This document shows, in pieces, positions 2,652-19,630 of a stretch of 64,000 nucleotides of DNA (the first letter of the stretch is position 1; the number at the start of each line of letters is the position of its first letter). The translations under genes were made by a program, and so were the position numbers. The notes under the pieces are model-generated. The model saw nothing but the letters and a program-made list of their open reading frames with translations, did not search any database and had not been told where the DNA came from. Source of the stretch: Stenotrophomonas oahuensis (GTDB lineage Bacteria; Pseudomonadota; Gammaproteobacteria; Xanthomonadales; Xanthomonadaceae); NCBI RefSeq assembly GCF_031834595.1, contig NZ_CP115541.1, positions 3,342,501 through 3,406,500 of the forward strand, read 5' to 3'.

Positions 2652-3212
2652 TCAGAACTTCATCGGGTCCATGATCGCGTCCAGGTTCAGGTGGTCGCAG
2701 AATTCCAGGAAGTCGTCGCGCAATGCGGCGATGTGCATGTTGGCGGGCACGCCGATGGTGACCTGCGCGGAGAACATTTCCGCACCGGTCTGCATGGCGC
2801 GGTAACGCGTGCTCTGCAGGTTTTCGATGGTGATGCCCTGGCGGTCGAAGAAGTCGGCCAGCTGGAACAGGATGCCCGGCTTGTCAGCGGCGATCACTTC
2901 CACGATGTAGGGCAGCAGGTTGGACTGCGCCTGCTTGGCCCCGGTGCGGTACCACACCAGCTTCAGGCCTTCCTCGCGCTCCAGCCGGGTCAGCATCGCT
3001 TCCAGCTTGGCGACCGCGTCCCACGAACCGGTGGCCAGGGCCGTCACCGAGACATCACGGCCGACGGTGGCCAGGCGGGCATCGACCAGATTGCAGCCAC
3101 TGTCGGCAATGCGCCGGGTCACAGGCAGCAGGGGGGACTCCGGATGCGTCGTATAGGCGTTGATCAGGAGGTGGTTTTCGGTCGGCGCAGGCCGCGGCGT
3201 GGAGTCGGTCAA
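2652..3212 (-). CDS. gcvR: glycine cleavage system repressor, ACT-domain protein
   Basis: A 186-residue protein with two ACT-like regions: [21 protein letters not shown] at the N-terminus, and [20 protein letters not shown], a classic ligand-binding ACT motif, in the second half. In E. coli GcvR binds GcvA and prevents activation of the gcv operon when glycine is low. There is no ATG in the right place; TTG at 3212 preceded by GGAA fits both length and homology. Next to bcp and divergent from dapA, as in enterobacteria. A plausible sigma70 promoter lies at 3274-3303. Confidence 0.8.
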
Positions 3213-3273
3213 GGGGGTTCCGGTAATGCAGGGTGAGTCTGAACGGTGCCGAACGGCACGTTCGCCGGAGTCC

Positions 3274-3303
3274 AGCATACTTGCCCGCGCTTTCGGCCCG
3301 CAA
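3274..3303 (-). promoter_or_regulatory. candidate promoter for gcvR
   Basis: Read leftwards: TTGCGG (3303-3298), an 18 bp spacer, then TATGCT (3279-3274). This leaves a leader of about 55 nt before the TTG start of gcvR. Predicted by eye only. The 160 bp gcvR/dapA divergent region must also hold the dapA promoter, which I could not place. Confidence 0.4.
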
Positions 3304-3372
3304 GTAACATGCAGAAGGCATCCGGCCGGCACCTGCGCGGCCTGCCTTTCCCCTTCTTCCGAGCATTGTTCC

Positions 3373-4266
3373 TTGTCTCTTTCCGGTCTCATCACCGCGC
3401 TGGCCACGCCTTTCCAGGCCAATGGCGCATTGGATCCCGACGGTTGGCAGCGCCTGCTGCACCTGCAACTGGAGGGGGGCGTTCACGGGGTCGTGGTGGC
3501 CGGTTCCACCGGCGAAGCGGCCACCCTGTCCGACGACGAATATGACCAGCTGCTGCGCAGCGCCGTGAAAGCCGTGGCCGGCCGCGTACCGGTCATCGCC
3601 GGCACCGGCCTGTCGGGCACGGCCAAAACCATCGAGCAGACCCGCCGCGCGGCGGCCAATGGGGCCACCCATGCGCTGGTGGTGACGCCGCCGTACGTAC
3701 GCCCGACCCAGGCCGGGCTGATCGCGCATTACCGCGCGGTGGCTGACCAGGGCGGCCTGCCGGTCATTCTGTACAACGTGCCGGGCCGCACCGGGGTGGA
3801 CATGCTGCCGGAAACGGTCGCGGAACTGGCCAGCCATCCGAACATCGTCGGCATCAAGGAAGCGGTGGGCGACAACGGCCGCGTGCAGGCACTGCTGGCC
3901 CTGCGTTCGCCAGACTTCGCGATCCTCAGCGGCGACGACGGCACGGCGGCGCGCTCCATTCTGTCGGGCATCGACGGCCTGATCTCGGTGGGTTCCAACG
4001 CGCTGCCGGGTTCCTACCGGCGCATGTGTGACCTGGCCGCGGCCGGCGAGCGCGAGGCGACCGAGTCCTGGAACGCCCGTCTGGACCCGTTCCACGACTT
4101 CTGCGGGGTGGAGCCGAACCCGATTCCGGTGAAGGAACTGCTGTACCGGATCGGCATCGGCCATGGCCTGCGACTGCCGCTGCTGCGGCTGTCCGAGCCC
4201 CACCATGCTGCAGCCGAACATCTGGCGTCCGACATCGGGGCGCTTGAAGCACTTTCCAGCCACTGA
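3373..4266 (+). CDS. dapA: 4-hydroxy-tetrahydrodipicolinate synthase
   Basis: A 297-residue TIM-barrel aldolase that condenses pyruvate with aspartate semialdehyde at the branch to lysine and diaminopimelate. Key residues are visible: GSTGEA (Ser45-Thr46), Tyr134 in [10 protein letters not shown] with Arg139, and the Schiff-base Lys162 in VGIKEAVGD. No ATG fits. TTG at 3373 gives [14 protein letters not shown], matching the family start, although no clear Shine-Dalgarno precedes it. It is followed 29 bp later by bamC, the same pairing as in E. coli, and the two share a terminator at 4850-4878. Confidence 0.94.
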
Positions 4267-4849: not shown

Positions 4850-4878
4850 GCGCCGGGCTCTGCCCGGCGCTTTTGTTT
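4850..4878 (+). terminator. intrinsic terminator of dapA-bamC
   Basis: Perfect 9 bp GC stem (GCGCCGGGC, 4850-4858, with GCCCGGCGC, 4862-4870) followed by TTTTGTTT. Confidence 0.75.
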
Positions 4879-4917: not shown

Positions 4918-5101
4918 GGCGTGCCGGGGTGGGTTTGCGGGACACGCCGTAAACCGCCCTCCGGGCCCCGGCCCAACCGCCAGCGGTTGGGCGTTCAGTC
5001 GCACGCGAGGCGGTGCCTCGCAAGCAGTGCGCCTTCACCCATGGGGGCTCGTAGAAAACATCCATGTTTTCTACGGTCCCGCAAACCCACCCCGGCACGC
5101 C
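4918..5101 (+). repeat. nested covarying hairpin element, copy 1
   Basis: Non-coding element in the bamC-fdxA gap. Outer arms 4919-4943 and 5076-5100 are perfectly complementary over 25 nt; the left arm ends GGGTTTGCGGGAC. Immediately inside the right arm is a 26 nt hairpin (5050-5075) with a 12 bp stem closing on a CC loop around AACATCCATGTT. The 106 nt between left arm and inner hairpin hold two more perfect stems: GCCCAACCGC with GCGGTTGGGC, and GCGAGGC with GCCTCGC. Copies 2 and 3 share the architecture with different arm sequences that remain paired. Orientation is sense to bamC. I do not recognise this family. Confidence 0.8.
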
Positions 5102-5105
5102 TCAG

Positions 5106-5220
5106 ACAGATGGCCGGTGGTCACGGGAAATGCCGAACCAACGGCAATGTCGATCTGGGGTCACTCGTTACCGGATGTTGAATGTTTCACGGCCGTCGTC
5201 TGTCGACCGACGCTACCGGC
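5106..5220 (+). repeat. dispersed intergenic module B, copy 1
   Basis: About 115 bp starting near the GGCCGGTGG motif and ending in a palindromic GTAG-type head (5191-5216, CGTCGTCTGTCGACCGACG). A clearly related segment occurs on the opposite strand at 11437-11550 (shared stretches include TTACCGGATGTTG and CACGGCCGTCGTCTGTCGAC). No reading frame here looks real. The rest of this 600 bp gene-free stretch holds only the hairpin element, a REP pair and terminators. Confidence 0.6.
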
Positions 5221-5317
5221 ATCGCGCGCGGTTTGGCTCTTGCTGGCCGCATCTCGCGATCCATCGGGGGAGGCCCCCAGGTAGCCCCCGGAGTGACACT
5301 CCACGGCATGGATGCCC

Positions 5318-5383
5318 GTAGTGACACGCCATGCGTGTCATGAACCGCCGGGGGCTCCGACGACACGCATGGCGTGTCCCTAC
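5318..5383. repeat. SMAG/REP-like inverted pair
   Basis: Two palindromic units in opposite orientation: GTAGTGACACGCCATGCGTG at 5318 onwards, and its inverse ending CCCTAC at 5383. Each folds into a GACACGC/GCGTGTC stem. The GTAG head is the hallmark of the S. maltophilia REP family. Confidence 0.8.
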
Positions 5384-5390
5384 GCCCAAC

Positions 5391-5417
5391 AAAAAAGGCA
5401 CCCGAAGGTGCCTTTTT
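5391..5417 (-). terminator. intrinsic terminator of fdxA
   Basis: Stem GGCACC/GGTGCC with a CGAA loop, flanked by an A-run and a T-run. Read leftwards it follows the fdxA stop codon by a few bases. It could act in both directions. Confidence 0.8.
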
Positions 5418-5420
5418 GCC

Positions 5421-5744
5421 TCAGCGCTCCAGCAACTCCAGTTTCCCGGGCTTGCCATCCCAATCACCCGCATCCGCCGGCGGGTCCTTGCGCACGGTCA
5501 GCACCGGCCAGGCCTTGGCCAGCTCGGCATTCAGGGCCACGAAGCCTTCCTGTCCGGCGGGCACGTCGTCCTCCGGGAAAATCGCGTTGACCGGGCACTC
5601 CGGTTCGCACAGGGTGCAGTCGATGCACTCGTCCGGGTCGATCACCAGGAAGTTCGGACCTTCGTGGAAACAGTCCACGGGGCACACTTCCACACAGTCG
5701 GTGTGCTTGCACTTGATGCAGTTTTCGGTGACGACAAAGGGCAT
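5421..5744 (-). CDS. fdxA: 7Fe ferredoxin FdxA
   Basis: A 107-residue soluble ferredoxin. N-terminal cysteines follow the FdxA pattern in [17 protein letters not shown] (C9, C12, C17, C21, C25), with a second set in [12 protein letters not shown], consistent with one [3Fe-4S] and one [4Fe-4S] cluster. The C-terminal extension of about 40 residues (ending GKLELLER) is typical of the Azotobacter FdI type. Start at 5744 gives [12 protein letters not shown], the family N-terminus. Encoded alone with its own terminator; the electron partner cannot be told from context. Confidence 0.95.
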
Positions 5745-5982
5745 GGCTGGATCAGAATCGGACGGTAAGCCTGACAATTCTAGAACAGTTGCGGCTTTGT
5801 CGCAGTGCACGATGCGCCGTCGTCGCCCCCCGGGTATAGATAGCCGTGCCCACCGGTAGACAGCCAGGGCCCGGGAAGTGGGGCTTCCCCAGGGCCGCCG
5901 GGCGCTGAACACCTGTGAGAACCCGCTTCAGCTGTACCTGCCGCGTTGACCGTCCGCTGTCTCCTTTCTGCCAGGGCCTTCC

Positions 5983-7404
5983 ATGTCGATACCCGCTGCT
6001 GCCACCGCCGCACCCGGCGAAAACACCTCCTTCATCGTCCTCATCAGCTGCGTGGCCACCCTGGGCGGCTTCCTGTTCGGCTTCGACAGCGGGGTCATCA
6101 ACGGCACCGTGGATGGCCTCAAGCAGACCTTCCAGTCCAGCCAGGCCGGGATCGGCTTTGAAGTGGCCTCGATGCTGCTGGGCTGCGCGATCGGTGCGTT
6201 CTTCGCCGGCCGCCTGGGCGACCGCCTGGGCCGGCGTGGCGTGCTGATCATCGCCGCGGTGCTGTTCCTGCTCTCCGCGCTGGGGGCAGGGGCCGCGCAC
6301 AGCTCGCTGGCGTTCGTGATCGCCCGCGTGGTCGGCGGCTTCGCGGTCGGCGCGGCCAGCGTCATGTCCCCGGCCTACATCGCCGAGGTGGCTTCGGCCC
6401 GCTATCGCGGGCGGCTGGCCACGGTGCAGCAGATTGCGATCATCAGTGGCCTTTTCTGCGCCTTCCTGAGCAACTACCTGCTGGCCCGTGCCGCCGGTGC
6501 CTCCACCGAGGCGCTGTGGCTGGGGCAGGCCGCGTGGCGCTGGATGTTCTGGATGCAGGCGATCCCGTCGGCCCTGTTCCTGGTGCTGCTGCTGGGTATC
6601 CCGGAAAGCCCGCGCTACCTGGTGGTGAAGGGCCGGCGTGAACAGGCGCTGGAGGTGATGACCCGCCTGTACGGTCCGGTCGAGGCCCAGGCCAAGCTGG
6701 GCGAGATCGATGCCTCGCTGTCCCAGGACCAGCACCGCCCGCGTCTGTCCGACCTGGTCGACAAGCACACCGGCAAGCTGCGCCGGATTGTCTGGGTCGG
6801 TATCGGTCTGGCCGTGTTCCAGCAGCTGGTCGGCATCAACGTGGTGTTCTACTACGGTGCCGTGCTGTGGCAGGCGGTGGGCTTCTCGGAAAGCGACGCG
6901 CTGCTGATCAACGTGCTGTCCGGTGCGCTCAGCATCGGGGCCTGCCTGCTCACCGTGGTGCTGATCGACCGGATCGGCCGCAAGCCGCTGCTGTGGGTGG
7001 GCTCGGCCGGCATGGCGGTGACCCTGGCGCTGGTGGTGGTGGCGTTCTCCAGCGGCTCGCTGGTGGACGGGAAGCTGCAGCTGTCCGACCAGATGGGCGT
7101 GCTGGCGCTGGTAGCGGCCAACGCCTACGTGGTGTTCTTCAACATGTCCTGGGGCCCGGTCATGTGGGTGATGCTGGGCGAGATGTTCCCCAACCAGATC
7201 CGCGGGTCCGGGCTGGCGGTGGCCGGCGCGGCGCAGTGGACGGCCAATTTCGCCATCACGGTCAGCTTCCCGGTGCTGCTGACCGGGATCGGCCTGGCCG
7301 GGGCCTACGGGCTGTATACGGCCGCGGCCGTGGCCTCGGTGTTCTTCGTGCTGCGCTATGTGCACGAGACCAAGGGCAAGGAGCTGGAGCAGATGGTCGG
7401 GTGA
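5983..7404 (+). CDS. sugar porter family MFS transporter
   Basis: A 473-residue, 12-helix inner-membrane proton/sugar symporter of the XylE/GLUT type. Family motifs: GFLFGFDSGVINGT in TM1, GRLGDRLGRRG in the loop between TM2 and TM3, PESPRYL after TM6, QQLVGINVVFYY in TM7, DRIGRKPLL, and the C-terminal ETKGKELE. Substrate is probably a hexose or pentose but cannot be fixed from sequence. It stands alone, 240 bp from divergent fdxA, ending in a strong terminator. No sugar-catabolic gene is directly beside it, although the Entner-Doudoroff operon lies 11 kb away. Confidence 0.9.
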   Translation: MSIPAAATAAPGENTSFIVLISCVATLGGFLFGFDSGVINGTVDGLKQTFQSSQAGIGFEVASMLLGCAIGAFFAGRLGDRLGRRGVLIIAAVLFLLSALGAGAAHSSLAFVIARVVGGFAVGAASVMSPAYIAEVASARYRGRLATVQQIAIISGLFCAFLSNYLLARAAGASTEALWLGQAAWRWMFWMQAIPSALFLVLLLGIPESPRYLVVKGRREQALEVMTRLYGPVEAQAKLGEIDASLSQDQHRPRLSDLVDKHTGKLRRIVWVGIGLAVFQQLVGINVVFYYGAVLWQAVGFSESDALLINVLSGALSIGACLLTVVLIDRIGRKPLLWVGSAGMAVTLALVVVAFSSGSLVDGKLQLSDQMGVLALVAANAYVVFFNMSWGPVMWVMLGEMFPNQIRGSGLAVAGAAQWTANFAITVSFPVLLTGIGLAGAYGLYTAAAVASVFFVLRYVHETKGKELEQMVG

Positions 7405-7407
7405 GCA

Positions 7408-7438
7408 ACAAAAAACCCCGCCTTGGCGGGGTTTTTTT
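7408..7438. terminator. bidirectional intrinsic terminator
   Basis: Stem CCCCGCC/GGCGGGG with a TT loop, an A-run on the left and a seven-T run on the right. It serves the MFS gene rightwards and probably the leftward tRNA-Glu transcript. Confidence 0.85.
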
Positions 7439-7456
7439 CGTCCTGCGTGCCGACAT

Positions 7457-7531
7457 TGGCGCTCCCTAGGGGACTCGAACCCCTGTTTTAGCCTTGAGAG
7501 GGCCACGTCCTAACCACTAGACGAAGGGAGC
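7457..7531 (-). tRNA. tRNA-Glu (CUC anticodon)
   Basis: A 75 nt cloverleaf on the minus strand. Acceptor GCTCCCT pairs with AGGGAGC; the D arm is GTCTAGTGGTTAGGAC; the anticodon loop CTCTCAA gives CUC; the T arm is GGGGTTCGAGTCCCC. The 3' CCA is encoded (comp 7459-7457). Overall pattern matches bacterial glutamate tRNAs. Confidence 0.95.
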
Positions 7532-7560
7532 GTGCTTTGTCGCGAGCGGCGCAGCGCGCT

Positions 7561-7589
7561 AGTATATTGGCGACGATGCCATTGGGCAA
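7561..7589 (-). promoter_or_regulatory. tRNA-Glu promoter, overlapping the pcnB start
   Basis: Leftward TTGCCC (7589-7584), exact 17 bp spacer, TATACT (7566-7561), then a GC-rich discriminator (AGCGCGC) of the kind seen in stringently controlled stable-RNA promoters. It lies across the first codons of the divergent pcnB gene. Confidence 0.65.
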
Positions 7590-8952
7590 TCCCGAAACTT
7601 CAACCGGAAGCGCCAACATCAATTCCTCTGCACCATCCTCGTTCGGTCTGCGCGTGATCCCCCGCGACCAGCACAACATCTCCCGCAAGGACATCAGCCC
7701 GAACGCGCTGCGCGTGTTGTACCGGCTGCGTGATTCCGGCTTTGGCGCTTACCTGGTCGGCGGGGCCGTGCGCGACCTGCTGGTCGGCGGGCACCCGAAA
7801 GACTTCGACGTGGCCACCGACGCCACCCCGGAGCAGGTCAAGGCGCTGTTCCGCAACTGCCGCCTGATCGGCCGCCGGTTCCGCCTGGCCCATGTGGTGT
7901 TCGGCCGCGAGATCATCGAAGTGGCCACCTTCCGTGCCAACAGCGACGACGGCAGCGGCGACCGCGAGATGGAAAACGGCATGCTGGTACGCGACAACGT
8001 GTACGGCACCATCGAAGACGATGCGGTGCGCCGCGACTTCAGCTGCAACGCGCTGTACTACGCCATCGAGGATTTCTCGGTGCGCGATTACACCGGTGGC
8101 TTCGAAGACGTGCAGGCGCGCCTGATGAAGCTGATCGGCGACCCCGAGCAGCGTTACCGCGAAGACCCGGTGCGCATGCTGCGCGCGGTGCGTCTGGCGG
8201 CCAAGCTCGGCTTCCAGATCGAGCAGGCCACCGCCGAGCCGCTGCCGCGCCTGGCCGGACTGCTGTCCGAAGCGGCCCCGGCGCGTCTGTTCGAAGAAGT
8301 ACTCAAGTTGTTCCTGTCCGGACACGGCGTGGCCAGCTTCGAAGGCCTGGAGCGTTACGGCCTGCTGGACGTGCTGTTCCCGGAAAGCGCCGCCGCGCTG
8401 CGCAGCAACCGCAGTGGCGCGCTGCGTCGCATGGTGATCGCAGGGCTGCACAGTACCGATCTGCGCGTGGCCAATGACGAGCCGGTGTCGCCGTCGTTCC
8501 TGTTCGCACTGCTGCTGTGGCCGGCGTTCTGCCGCGCCCTCGCCACCCTGCAGAAGCAGGGCGTGGCAGTGGAAGAGGCGCAGCGCCGAGCCGCTGACCG
8601 GGTCACTCTGCACCAGCTGACCACCATCGCGCTGCCGCGCCGCTTCTCGCTGCCGATGCAGGAAATCTGGCTGCTGCAGGGCCGCTTCAGCTCGCGCCAG
8701 CGCAAGCGCGTGTTCCGCACCCTCACGCATCCGCGCTTCCGCGCCGCCTTCGACTTCCTGGCGCTGCGCCAGGTCGCCTCCAGTGAGCACGAAGCCGATG
8801 TGCAGTTCTGGCGCGAGGCCCAGCAGCAGTCGGGTGCCGAGCTCGACTCCACCCTGGAAGCGGCACAGGCCGAGGTCGCGCTGGACGAAGAGGGGGCTCC
8901 GCGCAAGCGTCGCCGTCGTCGTCGGCGCACCGGTGGTCCGGCCGGCGAGTAA
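7576..8952 (+). CDS. pcnB: poly(A) polymerase I
   Basis: A 458-residue nucleotidyltransferase that adds poly(A) tails to RNA 3' ends and promotes decay. The N-terminal domain has GFGAYLVGGAVRDLLVG and the catalytic DFDVAT, followed by RLAHVVFG and EVATFR. RRDFSCNALYY and RYREDPVRMLRAVRLAAKLGF are the RNA-binding/head motifs that separate this family from CCA-adding enzymes, with which it is easily confused. The tail ends in an uninterrupted basic run (KRRRRRRRRTGG) likely to bind RNA. ATG at 7576 is the first reasonable start. It heads pcnB-folK-panB-panC, with 3 bp to folK. Confidence 0.9.
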   Translation: MPLGNPETSTGSANINSSAPSSFGLRVIPRDQHNISRKDISPNALRVLYRLRDSGFGAYLVGGAVRDLLVGGHPKDFDVATDATPEQVKALFRNCRLIGRRFRLAHVVFGREIIEVATFRANSDDGSGDREMENGMLVRDNVYGTIEDDAVRRDFSCNALYYAIEDFSVRDYTGGFEDVQARLMKLIGDPEQRYREDPVRMLRAVRLAAKLGFQIEQATAEPLPRLAGLLSEAAPARLFEEVLKLFLSGHGVASFEGLERYGLLDVLFPESAAALRSNRSGALRRMVIAGLHSTDLRVANDEPVSPSFLFALLLWPAFCRALATLQKQGVAVEEAQRRAADRVTLHQLTTIALPRRFSLPMQEIWLLQGRFSSRQRKRVFRTLTHPRFRAAFDFLALRQVASSEHEADVQFWREAQQQSGAELDSTLEAAQAEVALDEEGAPRKRRRRRRRTGGPAGE

Positions 8953-8955
8953 GAC

Positions 8956-9444
8956 ATGACCCTGGCCTGCATTGGCCTGGGTGGCAACCTGGGCGACGCC
9001 GCGCAGACCCTGCGCGGTGCCTTTGCCGCGCTGGCGGCGCTGCCGCAGACCACGCTGCTGGCGCACTCTCAGCTGTATTCCACCCCCGCCTGGGGCAATG
9101 AAGACCAGCCGCCCTTCGTCAATGCGGCCGCGCTGCTGGACACCGGGTTGTCCGCCTCGGCGCTACTGGATGCCTTGCTGGAGGTCGAACGGGCGTCCGG
9201 ACGGGTGCGTGACCCTGCCGTGCACTGGGGCCCGCGGACCCTGGACCTGGACCTGCTGCTGTATGGCGAGCAGGTGATCGACCTGCCGCAGCTGAAAGTG
9301 CCACACCCCTATCTGCACGAGCGCGCGTTCGTGCTGGTGCCCCTGGCCGAGATCGCCCCGGACGCGTTGATTCCGGGACAGGGCCGGGTACGGGATGCAG
9401 TGATGCGCATCGAGGCCAGCGGGATCGCGTCAATAGGAGGATAA
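8956..9444 (+). CDS. folK: 2-amino-4-hydroxy-6-hydroxymethyldihydropteridine diphosphokinase
   Basis: A 162-residue HPPK that transfers pyrophosphate from ATP to the pterin in folate synthesis. The family signature [13 protein letters not shown] supplies the magnesium-binding aspartates; IGLGGNLGD at the start, [11 protein letters not shown] and [21 protein letters not shown] are also diagnostic. It begins 3 bp after pcnB and precedes panB, as in many proteobacteria, so translation is probably coupled. Confidence 0.96.
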
Positions 9445-9475
9445 TGCGGGGCTTATCGCCACCGGTTATCAGTAC

Positions 9476-10291
9476 ATGAGTACCCACGCAGACAGCAAAC
9501 CCTGGACCGTTCCCGCCCTGGCCGAGGCCAAGCGCAACGGGCAGAAGCTGGTCATGTTGACCGCTTACGACGCAGGTTTTGCGCGCACCTTCGACGCCAA
9601 CGGCGTGGACCTGATCCTGATCGGCGACTCGCTGGGCATGGTGGTGCAGGGGCATGATTCGACCCTGCCGGTGACCGTGGCCGACATGGTCTACCACACC
9701 CGCGTGGTCGCCCGTGTACTGCAGCGGGCGCTGCTGGTAGCTGACCTGCCGTTCGGTGCCGATGCCACGCCCGAGCGCGCGCTGGAGGCCTCGCTGCAGC
9801 TGCTGCAGGCCGGCGCGGAGATGGTCAAGATCGAAGGGGCCGGCTTCAAGCTGGACATCATTCGTTACCTGGTCGAGCGTGAGATTCCGGTCTGCTCGCA
9901 CCTGGGTCTGACCCCGCAGTCGGTGCTGCGCCTGGGCGGCTACCGGGTACAGGGTCGTGGCGATGCGGCCGAGCAGCTGCGCGCCGACGCCAAGTCCGCC
10001 GTCGATGCCGGTGCCACCCTGGTGGTGCTGGAATGCGTGCCGACCCCGATTGCGACCCAGATCAGCGCCGAGATCAGCGCGCCCACCATCGGCATTGGTG
10101 CCGGCCCGGGCTGTGACGGTCAGGTGCTGGTGATGCACGATTTCCTTGGCCTGGACAGCGGCCATCGCCGACCCAAGTTCGTCAAGGATTTCCTTGCCGA
10201 AGGCGGTTCGGTGGCCGGTGCGGTCCGCGCCTACGCCGACGCCGTGCGCGACGGCTCCTTCCCCGACGCAGAACACGCCTACGCATCATGA
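9476..10291 (+). CDS. panB: 3-methyl-2-oxobutanoate hydroxymethyltransferase
   Basis: A 271-residue enzyme making ketopantoate from alpha-ketoisovalerate and methylene-THF. Signature stretches: [34 protein letters not shown] (the Asp ligands of Mg2+), [20 protein letters not shown] and [14 protein letters not shown]. Length matches the family. It overlaps panC by 4 bp (ATGA), so the two pantothenate genes are translationally coupled. Confidence 0.96.
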
Positions 10292-11130
10292 TCGAAACCG
10301 TCACCGAACTGTCCCGTCTGCGCGCCGTCGTCAACGGCTGGAAGCGCGAGGGCCTGCGCGTCGCGCTGGTCCCGACCATGGGCAACCTGCACGCCGGCCA
10401 CTACTCGCTGGTCACCCTGGCCCGCCAGTACGCCGACCGCGTGGTCTCCAGCGTGTTCGTCAATCCGACCCAGTTCGGCCCGAACGAGGACTTCACCCGC
10501 TACCCGCGCACGCCGGAAGCGGACACCTCGGGGTTGGAGCAGGCCGGCTGCGACGTGTTGTGGCTGCCGACGGTGGAATCGATGTACCCGTTCGGCGTGG
10601 AGCTGGCGGCCAACGTGCATGTGCCGGGCATCAGCAGTCTGCTCGAAGGCGCACATCGCCCGGGTCATTTCGATGGCGTGTGCACGGTGGTGAGCCGCCT
10701 GTTCAACCAGGTGCAGCCGGATGTGGCCGCCTTCGGCAAGAAGGACTACCAGCAGCTGGCGGTGATCCGTCAGCTGGTGGAAGACCTGGCCTTCCCGATC
10801 CAGATCGTCGGCGGCGACATCGTCCGCGAGGATGACGGCCTGGCGATGAGTTCGCGCAACCAGTACCTCAATGGCGAGCAGCGCCCCGTTTCGACCACCA
10901 TCCACCAGGTGCTGCTGGGCATGCGCGAAGGTTTCATCGCCGGCAAGGCACGCAGCCTGATCGAAGCCGAGGCCACCGCCGCCCTGCAGGCCGCCGGCTT
11001 CCAGGTCGACTACGCCGTGATCCGCCTGCCGGACCTGTCCGAGCCGGCCGACAGCGACGTCGGCAACCGCGTCGCCCTGATCGCCGCCCGCATCGGCTCC
11101 ACCCGCCTGATCGACAACCTCGAGTTCTGA
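10288..11130 (+). CDS. panC: pantothenate synthetase
   Basis: A 280-residue ligase joining pantoate and beta-alanine via a pantoyl-adenylate. The nucleotidyltransferase motifs are present: [15 protein letters not shown] (HxGH), [29 protein letters not shown] and [12 protein letters not shown]. Coupled to panB by an ATGA overlap. The third gene of the pathway, panD, which supplies beta-alanine, lies 715 bp downstream beyond a repeat-filled gap. Confidence 0.96.
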
Positions 11131-11139
11131 TTCGCCCGG

Positions 11140-11162
11140 GCATCCGGCCGTTGGCCGGATGC
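11140..11162 (+). terminator. hairpin after panC
   Basis: Perfect 10 bp stem GCATCCGGCC/GGCCGGATGC with a GTT loop, starting 9 bp after the panC stop. There is no T-run, so it may be a weak terminator, a 3'-end stabiliser, or a repeat unit. Confidence 0.4.
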
Positions 11163-11208
11163 TTCACGCATTCGTACGAACAGCCGATGGCCATCGGTTT
11201 CCGTGTTC

Positions 11209-11394
11209 GGGCCGGTCGGGGTGGGTTTGCGGGACACGCCGTGAATCCCCCTCCGGGGCCCGGCCCAACCGCCAGCGGTTGGGCGTTCAGTCGCACGCGA
11301 GGCAGTGCCTCGCAATCCGTGCGCCTTCACCCATGTAGGCTCGTCAAAAACATCCATGTTTTTGACGGTCCCGCAAACCCACCCCGACCGGCCC
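11209..11394 (+). repeat. nested covarying hairpin element, copy 2
   Basis: Same design and size as copy 1. Outer arms 11210-11235 and 11368-11393 are complementary over 26 nt without mismatch; their distal half differs from copy 1 on both sides. The inner hairpin 11342-11367 again has a 12 bp stem and CC loop, with GTC/GAC replacing the GTA/TAC of copy 1. The 106 nt internal domain keeps the GCCCAACCGC/GCGGTTGGGC and GCGAGGC/GCCTCGC stems. Sense to panC, in its 3' flank. Confidence 0.8.
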
Positions 11395-11436
11395 CTGACA
11401 GAAGGTCGGTGGCCAAGGAAGATCAAAAGCACGTAG

Positions 11437-11550
11437 CTCCGGTAGCGTCGGTCGACAGACGACGGCCGTGAAATCCCCAACATCCGGTAACGCATGACCC
11501 CGGATCAACGTTGCCGTTGATTCGGCACTTCCCATGGCCACCGACCCACT
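11437..11550 (-). repeat. dispersed intergenic module B, copy 2 (flipped)
   Basis: Read on the minus strand this matches 5106-5220 over about 115 bp, including TTACCGGATGTTG and the CACGGCCGTCGTCTGTCGAC palindrome (11441-11467). It is inverted relative to the neighbouring hairpin element, unlike copy 1. The remaining gene-free sequence to 11700 shows no convincing gene. Confidence 0.6.
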
Positions 11551-11707
11551 GTCGATGGCGGCTCGGGATGGGCTGGAGGGGGCGTGAGCCGCATGGATGC
11601 GGCGATCGAGCTTACAGGGACGTACTTGCAGCGTCCCCCGGAACGCCCGTCCTGAGCCGCCAAGCCAGAGGTGCCGTGAACCGAGGGCTGTTCGCCTGAA
11701 TCCAACA

Positions 11708-11787: not shown

Positions 11788-11815
11788 CTGTCGTATCCGC
11801 CCCGGGTGCTAGAAT
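11788..11815 (+). promoter_or_regulatory. candidate panD promoter
   Basis: CTGTCG (11788-11793), 16 bp spacer, TAGAAT (11810-11815), about 30 bp upstream of the panD ATG. It would give panD-pgi its own transcript, independent of panBC. Confidence 0.4.
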
Positions 11816-11845
11816 TCGGCTTTCCTTTTGCCGTTGTGTCGCCCC

Positions 11846-19524: not shown

Positions 19525-19630
19525 GGTAGCGGCGGGGGCCCTTTCCGGGACCGTCCAAAACATGGATGTTTTGGACGAGCCCCCATGGATGGGTTCACGG
19601 CGTGTCCCGGAAAGGGCCCCCGCCGCTGCC
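19525..19630 (-). repeat. nested covarying hairpin element, copy 3 (short form)
   Basis: Outer arms 19525-19551 and 19604-19630 pair over 26 of 27 positions. Their sequence is unrelated to copies 1 and 2 except for the GGGAC/GTCCC base of the stem. The inner hairpin 19552-19577 has a 12 bp stem with GTCC/GGAC ends and the same AACATCCATGTT centre on the minus strand. The segment linking it to the other arm is only 26 nt (106 in copies 1 and 2) but keeps their two ends (ACGCCGTGAA, CCATGGGGGCT). On the minus strand it is sense to edd. Confidence 0.78.

Follow-up and report, generated by a model that had tools for sequence, protein, structure and literature searches.

The subject of this study is a repeated and highly structured element in the genome of Stenotrophomonas oahuensis, three copies of which lie in a stretch of 64,000 nucleotides (contig NZ_CP115541.1, positions 3,342,501 to 3,406,500; below, the window). 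It is a real, conserved and strand-specific structured element, dispersed in a patchy manner across the Gammaproteobacteria. The consensus fold is a three-way junction of a long outer stem, an inner hairpin P3 and a small hairpin P2, and on one strand, referred to here as the GGA strand, the two hairpin loops of a unit read A-N-GGA-N. From these features we predict a dispersed bivalent RNA module that binds CsrA/RsmA, is expressed by read-through and acts as a sponge or a tag, a proposal whose chances we regard as evenly balanced.

The original prediction, made from the window alone, had placed three copies of a nested hairpin element at 4918-5101, 11209-11394 and 19525-19630, and all three were located there. 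The outer arms are near to perfect, with 26 bp perfect in copy 1, 27 bp perfect in copy 2 and 27 bp with one mismatch in copy 3, and the ends of the inner hairpin, P3, do vary jointly between the copies. The proposed design of stems with joint changes stands, but the second small hairpin P2 had been missed and the fold is in fact a three-way junction. Copies 1 and 2 are both atypical, each carrying an insert of about 80 bp that replaces P2. Copy 2 is one half of a head-to-head dimer, and the partner of copy 1 is truncated. The strand assigned to the structure has to be exchanged, as pairing is conserved on the opposite, GGA strand. The features of the window (REP, repetitive extragenic palindrome) are as follows:

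4918-5101, GGA strand −: copy 1 unit, with outer arms 4918-4943 and 5076-5101 and an insert in place of P2
5050-5075, − strand: hairpin P3 of copy 1, whose loop reads AUGGAU on this strand
4956-5036 (approximate limits), strand unspecified: insert of about 80 bp in the P2 arm of copy 1, common to copy 2 and in part to the partner unit of locus L023
5266-5316, + strand: truncated partner unit of copy 1, a 5' arm and half of P3 followed by a REP-like palindrome, read by eye
11209-11394, GGA strand −: copy 2 unit, left half of a dimer, its P2 with an insert matching that of copy 1
11342-11367, − strand: P3 hairpin of copy 2
11395-11557, strand unspecified: spacer of the dimer, the core of which is found in either orientation between dimers
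11558-11660, + strand: type II partner unit of copy 2, forming the right half of the dimer 11209-11660; the stem-loop of its P3 is GCCGCAUGGAUGCGGC
19525-19630, GGA strand +: copy 3 unit, an intact three-way junction
19552-19577, + strand: P3 of copy 3, reading AACATGGATGTT on the + strand
19582-19593, + strand: P2 of copy 3; GGA lies at 19564-19566 (P3) and 19587-19589 (P2), with 20 nt between them

RNA folding of the GGA strands of the intact and insert-bearing units in the window yielded z-scores of -9.15, -10.93 and -11.84, far outside what chance would give. The inserts of copies 1 and 2, which are 6 kb apart, have hairpins of their own. The last part of the insert matched only these two copies in a genome search (best 40 of 63 candidates), while a 19-base piece also lies inside the 183-nt partner unit of L023 (736-918) in the same genome, and a 38-base piece was absent from the other fetched loci except L166, which is copy 2 itself. 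Longer units with additional P2 sequence occur elsewhere too (L227).

Three copies had been reported, and these are present, but they belong to a genome-wide family that the window alone did not reveal. In the genome of 4.68 Mb there are 54 occurrences of the motif AACATCCATGTT and 0 of the motif read backwards, which likewise lies far from chance. The 51 occurrences outside the window were fetched with their flanks, and 51 of the 54 copies were aligned on the opposite strand, leaving out the two insert-bearing window copies and a short copy at L035. A covariance model, R1, was made from these 51 aligned copies, and its search of this genome gave at least 105 units, namely 102 distinct model matches, the two insert-bearing window copies and one unfetched match. 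This is a lower bound, as the best 150 of 1742 first-look candidates were scored and the insert-bearing partner unit of L023 is uncounted. The 134 match rows in the genome include reverse-strand self-matches of the palindromic units, and the reverse reading of the palindrome at L035 was dropped. Units are about 102-108 nt long, and among the 102 that were scored P3 is of the type AACATGGATGTT in 52, CGCATGGATGCG in 34 and of other types in 16. At L035 (466-541) lies a unit without P2 and junction, of which a near-perfect palindrome of outer stem and P3 remains.

Covariation was seen on three alignment sets: the genome's own copies, 84 units from other genomes (A2) and 45 distinct units from other families of the order (A4). 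In A2 the outer helix is 99.2% paired, and 23 of its 23 pairs have changed on both sides; for the whole structure 98.0% of the pair cells are standard, with both sides changed in 35 of 40 pairs. The covariation score of 0.743 compares to 0.171 in shuffles (0 of 500 were as high) and to at most 0.129 in slid versions of the structure. A4, with 94.1% standard pairs, scores 0.900 versus 0.225 in shuffles. Note that the alignments were fitted to the model with a bias towards structure; the arms can still be paired by eye in the printed rows. As evidenced by these scores, the claim that the covariation stems from a selected RNA or single-stranded DNA (ssDNA) structure is supported. The original prediction had named unpaired arm substitutions in further copies as evidence to the contrary, and these copies stay paired, with few unpaired changes. 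Within one genome the arms can differ wholly and still pair with each other, and this holds for a unit with a G+C content as low as 34% (L240). In a gap between genes that resemble panC and panD (named by eye), the outer arms differ between three species; copy 2 has perfect arms, and in comparison to these L172 differs by four changes, of which two are paired, one gives a G-U on the GGA strand and one is unpaired, while in L173 a G-U on the GGA strand is found at two positions.

The mismatches that do occur single out one strand. Read on the GGA strand, the outer stems of A2 contain 65 G-T, 3 A-C and 14 other mismatches (gapped cells dropped; the 24 pairs counted are 23 outer ones and the first of P3), with G-T in 42 rows and A-C in 3; as the sequences are related, p-values on such counts are overstated. 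The corresponding numbers are 41, 3 and 36 for A4 (36 units, omitting the 10 of 46 that are not of length 102) and 52, 9 and 18 for the type I units of this genome (47 units), and a count on this genome without the model gave 54, 11 and 46, some rows being out of register. The excess of G-T over A-C indicates that the GGA strand is the selected strand. Strand-biased mismatches of this kind argue for selection for the pairing of one strand, and palindrome-restoring mutation is not expected to produce them.

The loops are the second conserved feature. In the consensus of the 51 aligned copies of this genome the P3 loop is AUGGAU on the GGA strand. The pattern of P3 in A2 is C-A-N-G-G-A-N-G, its six fixed bases being invariant in 84 of 84 units, and the P2 loop has its A in 84 of 84 and GGA in 83 of 84, with one C change. 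The base before GGA in P2 is variable (T62 G12 C6 A4), as is the base after it (T43 C39 G2), and the loop A is retained although the closing pair is broken in 41 of 84 units. Taking A2 and A4 together, both loops contain GGA in 126 of 129 distinct units and the strict ANGGAN in 113, and 8 have a 5-nt AGGAN loop in P3. In a further set (A5) 92 of 113 rows have two strict motifs and the other 21 have one; as the pattern used to select these loci included the GGA of P2, the set is uninformative on P2. The two GGAs are separated by 20 nt in 290 of the 316 rows measured, while 17 rows have 21 nt and 7 have 19 nt; of 344 rows, 28 were without both motifs, and two of the 316 measured have an impossible value of -3.

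The review PMC7652899 gives RUACARGGAUGU as the CsrA site selected by systematic evolution of ligands by exponential enrichment (SELEX), describes ANGGAN hexaloops in RsmE complexes and puts the range for dual-site bridging at 10-63 nt, the optimum lying above 18 nt; the A(N)GGA motif is stated likewise in PMC6028588 and PMC5864184. Of the 12 positions of the SELEX site, 11 agree with P2 loops such as CUACAGGGAUGU. A constant GGA with variable neighbours is thus in agreement with the published CsrA/RsmA site, and the 20-nt spacing is in agreement with dual-site bridging. The GGA strand would encode a compact RNA in which a long outer stem of free sequence presents two A-N-GGA-N hairpins at a near-fixed spacing of 20 nt, and the dimer of CsrA/RsmA would be the best-fitting ligand, bridging both loops.

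Such a module would share its binding sites with known antagonists of CsrA and differ from them in organization. CsrB/CsrC and RsmX/Y/Z also have hairpins with A(N)GGA loops at a spacing that allows dual-site binding, but they come from one or few genes, with their own promoters and many sites (in part after PMC7652899), whereas the present unit is dispersed in at least 105 copies with two sites each and no promoter or terminator seen. RsmU from Xanthomonas, according to the accessible part of PMC7694677, likewise binds RsmA, has GGA motifs and originates from an mRNA 3' region (for the present unit binding is a prediction); it derives from one gene, for which that part of the paper states no relation to a repeat family.

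Several observations weigh against CsrA as the ligand and against an expressed module. The CsrA motif was recognized only once the alignment was at hand. Both the first copies and the model came from units that have a GGA loop in P3, a choice that favours GGA matches. P3, with about 11 bp, is longer than the stems of typical CsrA ligands, SELEX hairpins having mostly four or fewer contiguous pairs (PMC7652899). The mismatch bias is weak in the inner stems (11 G-T, 6 A-C and 45 others in A2), the GGA loop of P2 is lost to the insert in window copies 1 and 2, and bases of the junction are conserved near loop level without a role in a pure CsrA model. Single units between genes of the same direction are GGA-sense in 22 cases and antisense in 20. 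A search with the sigma-70 consensus only found no sigma-70-like promoter in the three window loci, and on either strand only 1 of 185 units is followed, within 15 nt, by a run of at least 4 T, as opposed to 6 of 185 random places (185 of 187 units, rows with short flanks dropped). Of 44 genomes that bear the element 43 have a csrA gene, and of 36 further genomes from the same draw 32 do (p = 0.17); CsrA being nearly universal in the class, co-occurrence is uninformative, and as a test of the ligand it fits without discriminating. One element-bearing genome, G492 (98% complete, 270 contigs), gave no CsrA match.

The arrangement of the units bears on how they might be expressed. In this genome, pairs less than 450 bp apart are invariably head to head, with GGA on the − and then on the + strand (38 of 38), and two further pairs 0.5-1.2 kb apart have the same order, as do 15 groups in a first set of other genomes. 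Exceptions among named loci are a +− pair (L254), a −− pair (L268), a ++ pair (L277) and four direct copies (L240). The latter, from an uncultured Saccharophagus (3109-3748), lie in AT-rich sequence and are spaced by about 180 bp, unlike the inverted dimers seen here. The spacer core (GTTACCGG...GTCGACCGATCCCACC) lies between inner flanks that are inverted, and its orientation differs from dimer to dimer in roughly equal shares, as though it could invert or had been rearranged: among 38 spacers it runs one way in 15 and the other way in 12, with 11 lacking the marker (pairs of two like units uncorrected). A dimer would offer one GGA unit to transcripts from either side, so that the need for an orientation would be removed, and read-through in either direction would give a transcript with one GGA unit. 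Transcripts that end in or pass a unit may titrate RsmA as a distributed sponge or may, alternatively, be held, protected or terminated by RsmA, the unit acting as a tag in cis. A cis element in the sense of the mRNA is ruled out as a general rule by the 22 sense and 20 antisense cases.

Beyond this genome, the search with R1 gave matches in 32 of 119 genomes and 16 of 54 genera of the family, in 55 of 200 genomes of the order and in 44 of 276 sampled genomes and 40 of 215 genera of the class, this genome being included at each level. The core pattern was found in at least 120 stretches of named genomes; the 80 loci listed are all from Gammaproteobacteria except one named only Pseudomonadota, and include Stenotrophomonas, Xanthomonas, Microbulbifer, Marinobacter, Alcanivorax, Cellvibrio, Pseudomonas and others. 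The exact core pattern was not matched in viral contigs. The panC-panD-like gap holds the element in 3 of 30 same-genus loci, and the spread is patchy even within one genus. A genome of 2.1 Mb (G578) has 8 CsrA matches and 10 model matches of the unit family.

Presence and absence at one site together with the dimer form suggest a transposition-like spread, by which the units may have come to lie, here often as head-to-head dimers, downstream of genes. With regard to a possible miniature inverted-repeat transposable element, the observations are the inverted dimer, the lack of a called gene inside and the variable occupation of the panC-panD-like gap. In the main rival explanation the units are ssDNA hairpins of a non-autonomous transposable element, REPIN-like or like terminal inverted repeats (TIRs), that are recognized by an HUH-type tyrosine transposase, the loops being contacts for the enzyme and an RNA function being absent. 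The copy number, the −+ order of all close pairs and the patchy occurrence in the family and at the panC-panD-like gap are in its favour, and a tolerance for G-T would suit one strand of ssDNA as well. By eye, a GTAG-type REP lies outside each end in many of 21 dimers inspected. REPs and REPINs with their RAYT are likewise palindromic, intergenic, located downstream of genes, arranged in inverted doublets and high in copy number. PMC3733652 (De Gregorio and Di Nocera, 2013) describes families of tyrosine transposase TIR repeats in S. maltophilia K279a. They resemble the present units in high copy number and organism group, and one family does so also in being self-complementary and occurring in close pairs.

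The likeness has its limits. The original prediction had set the element apart from the short GTAG REPs, and for the unit itself this holds: instead of a GTAG/GTGG 5' foot on a palindrome of 20-40 bp, it has a variable outer foot and, with 102-108 nt, a three-way junction with hypervariable arms, and no RAYT was found adjacent. GTAG-type REPs nevertheless flank many of the copies in this genome. TIRs are defined by a flanking tyrosine transposase gene, and none was found for the unit; they were compared by description only, and identity in sequence is possible. Y1_Tnp matched in 19 of 24 carrier genomes (37 matches, 30 with loci) and in 5 it did not, but R1, run on 32 Y1_Tnp loci (30 from relatives and two of this genome) at E values up to 0.1, gave a single weak match, and this at a different palindrome (L095). 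Three genomes, G082 with at least 33 model matches, G106 with 31 and G031 with 11, have no Y1_Tnp match. A link to TIRYT or RAYT is thus unsupported. A-N-GGA-N loops at a spacing of 20 nt would, in our judgement, be unexpected for such elements, and we consider this rival doubtful. The units were also examined by eye as transposase ends, a role that was rejected: there is no transposase between the units of two pairs with a distance of about 1 kb (L074, L075), and between those of a third pair, at 1.6 kb (L293), lie ordinary genes that look SDR-like and DsbA-like. Of the two Y1_Tnp genes of this genome, one has GTAG-type REPs on its flanks (L094) and the other a different palindrome (L095). 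At L095 (1340-2060) the gene lies between long self-complementary repeats of the GGACACGCCATGCGTGTCC type, and together they may be a TIRYT element of the published kind; at about 5317-5390 of the window, after the truncated partner of copy 1, there is a palindrome that resembles these repeats.

Enterobacterial repetitive intergenic consensus (ERIC) elements are intergenic palindromic repeats of about 100-130 bp. Kinship with them, considered for this similarity, was not supported, as R1 gave no match at E values up to 10 in the one ERIC copy from E. coli tested. In Rfam 15, no family exceeded its gathering cut-off at the units in positions 1-22000 of the window and at eight other loci, where only tRNA passed, and in a search with relaxed E-value the sole row over a unit was a microRNA family with 30 of 73 bits. 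The description of the family as unrecognized is borne out to this extent, and the match to a known transposon or repeat that would have spoken against it was not encountered as far as Rfam and the flanking genes (no transposase) go. Topic searches of the open-access literature found no paper on such an element, and of 5.39 million papers 15 contain at least one of six strings of its core sequence, none of them a paper on bacterial repeats, judged by title. The accessible parts of PMC3733652, PMC7694677, PMC6006769, PMC3686654, PMC9788540, PMC5864184, PMC9927453, PMC12306157, PMC7652899 and PMC6028588 do not describe it.

If the GGA strand does act as a structured RNA, its ligand might be a protein other than CsrA, or the junction might have a function of its own. 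The strand-specific pairing would be accounted for, and the junction bases GAGCC (conserved at 0.92-1.0 in A2) and ACGGCGUGU (0.87-1.0) would gain a role. The loops, however, fit the CsrA site in sequence, size and spacing, which a second ligand would have to match by coincidence, and we hold this explanation to be distinctly unlikely.

Context was called with a simple codon-based gene caller, which found no gene inside any of 135 unit groups; leaving out 31 groups with an uncalled neighbour, 3 of 104 lie between divergent genes, in comparison to 7 of 22 gaps longer than 60 bp among 40 of 57 called genes of the window (p = 1.7e-4). This avoidance of divergent intergenic regions and the very stable folds would suit REP-like structures at 3' ends that stop transcription or protect mRNA ends without a specific ligand. 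In the three window loci, terminator-like sites were found at 4850-4870, just before copy 1, and at 11802-11819, before the panD-like gene, with none at a unit. As no promoter was found in these loci and, with one case in 185, hardly a T run, the unit resembles neither an intrinsic terminator nor a self-standing small RNA gene. Loops and junction are moreover conserved far beyond the need of such a structure while the stem is not, and this makes a ligand-free role at 3' ends improbable. Last, a mutational process such as template switching or gene conversion between arms could keep palindromes perfect without structural selection, as near-perfect arms that often differ wholly between copies might suggest, but it would be strand-blind, at odds with a G-T to A-C ratio of 65:3 on the GGA strand, and would leave the conserved loops between the arms unexplained, so that we give it very little credence.

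We thus return to the CsrA/RsmA-binding module. Networks of Csr/Rsm are usually drawn with one to few antagonist small RNAs. A tentative extension, possible on the evidence of sequence and arrangement, is that this family is mobile and class-wide and constitutes a combined distributed sponge and tagging system, with up to about 100 putative RsmA docking sites per genome at the ends of genes, often in inverted pairs that would expose one site by read-through from either side, and with copy number setting the buffering of Csr/Rsm. If this is true, CsrA would be buffered or wired in a manner unlike that usually drawn, by up to about 100 bivalent sites in a genome, and a mobile element would carry a regulator-binding RNA. 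The reasons for which certain long intergenic repeats are retained could then be tested as well, on a conserved structured strand with a ligand that can be named. Even without CsrA, it appears to represent an unnamed structured RNA family that extends over many genera of the Gammaproteobacteria.

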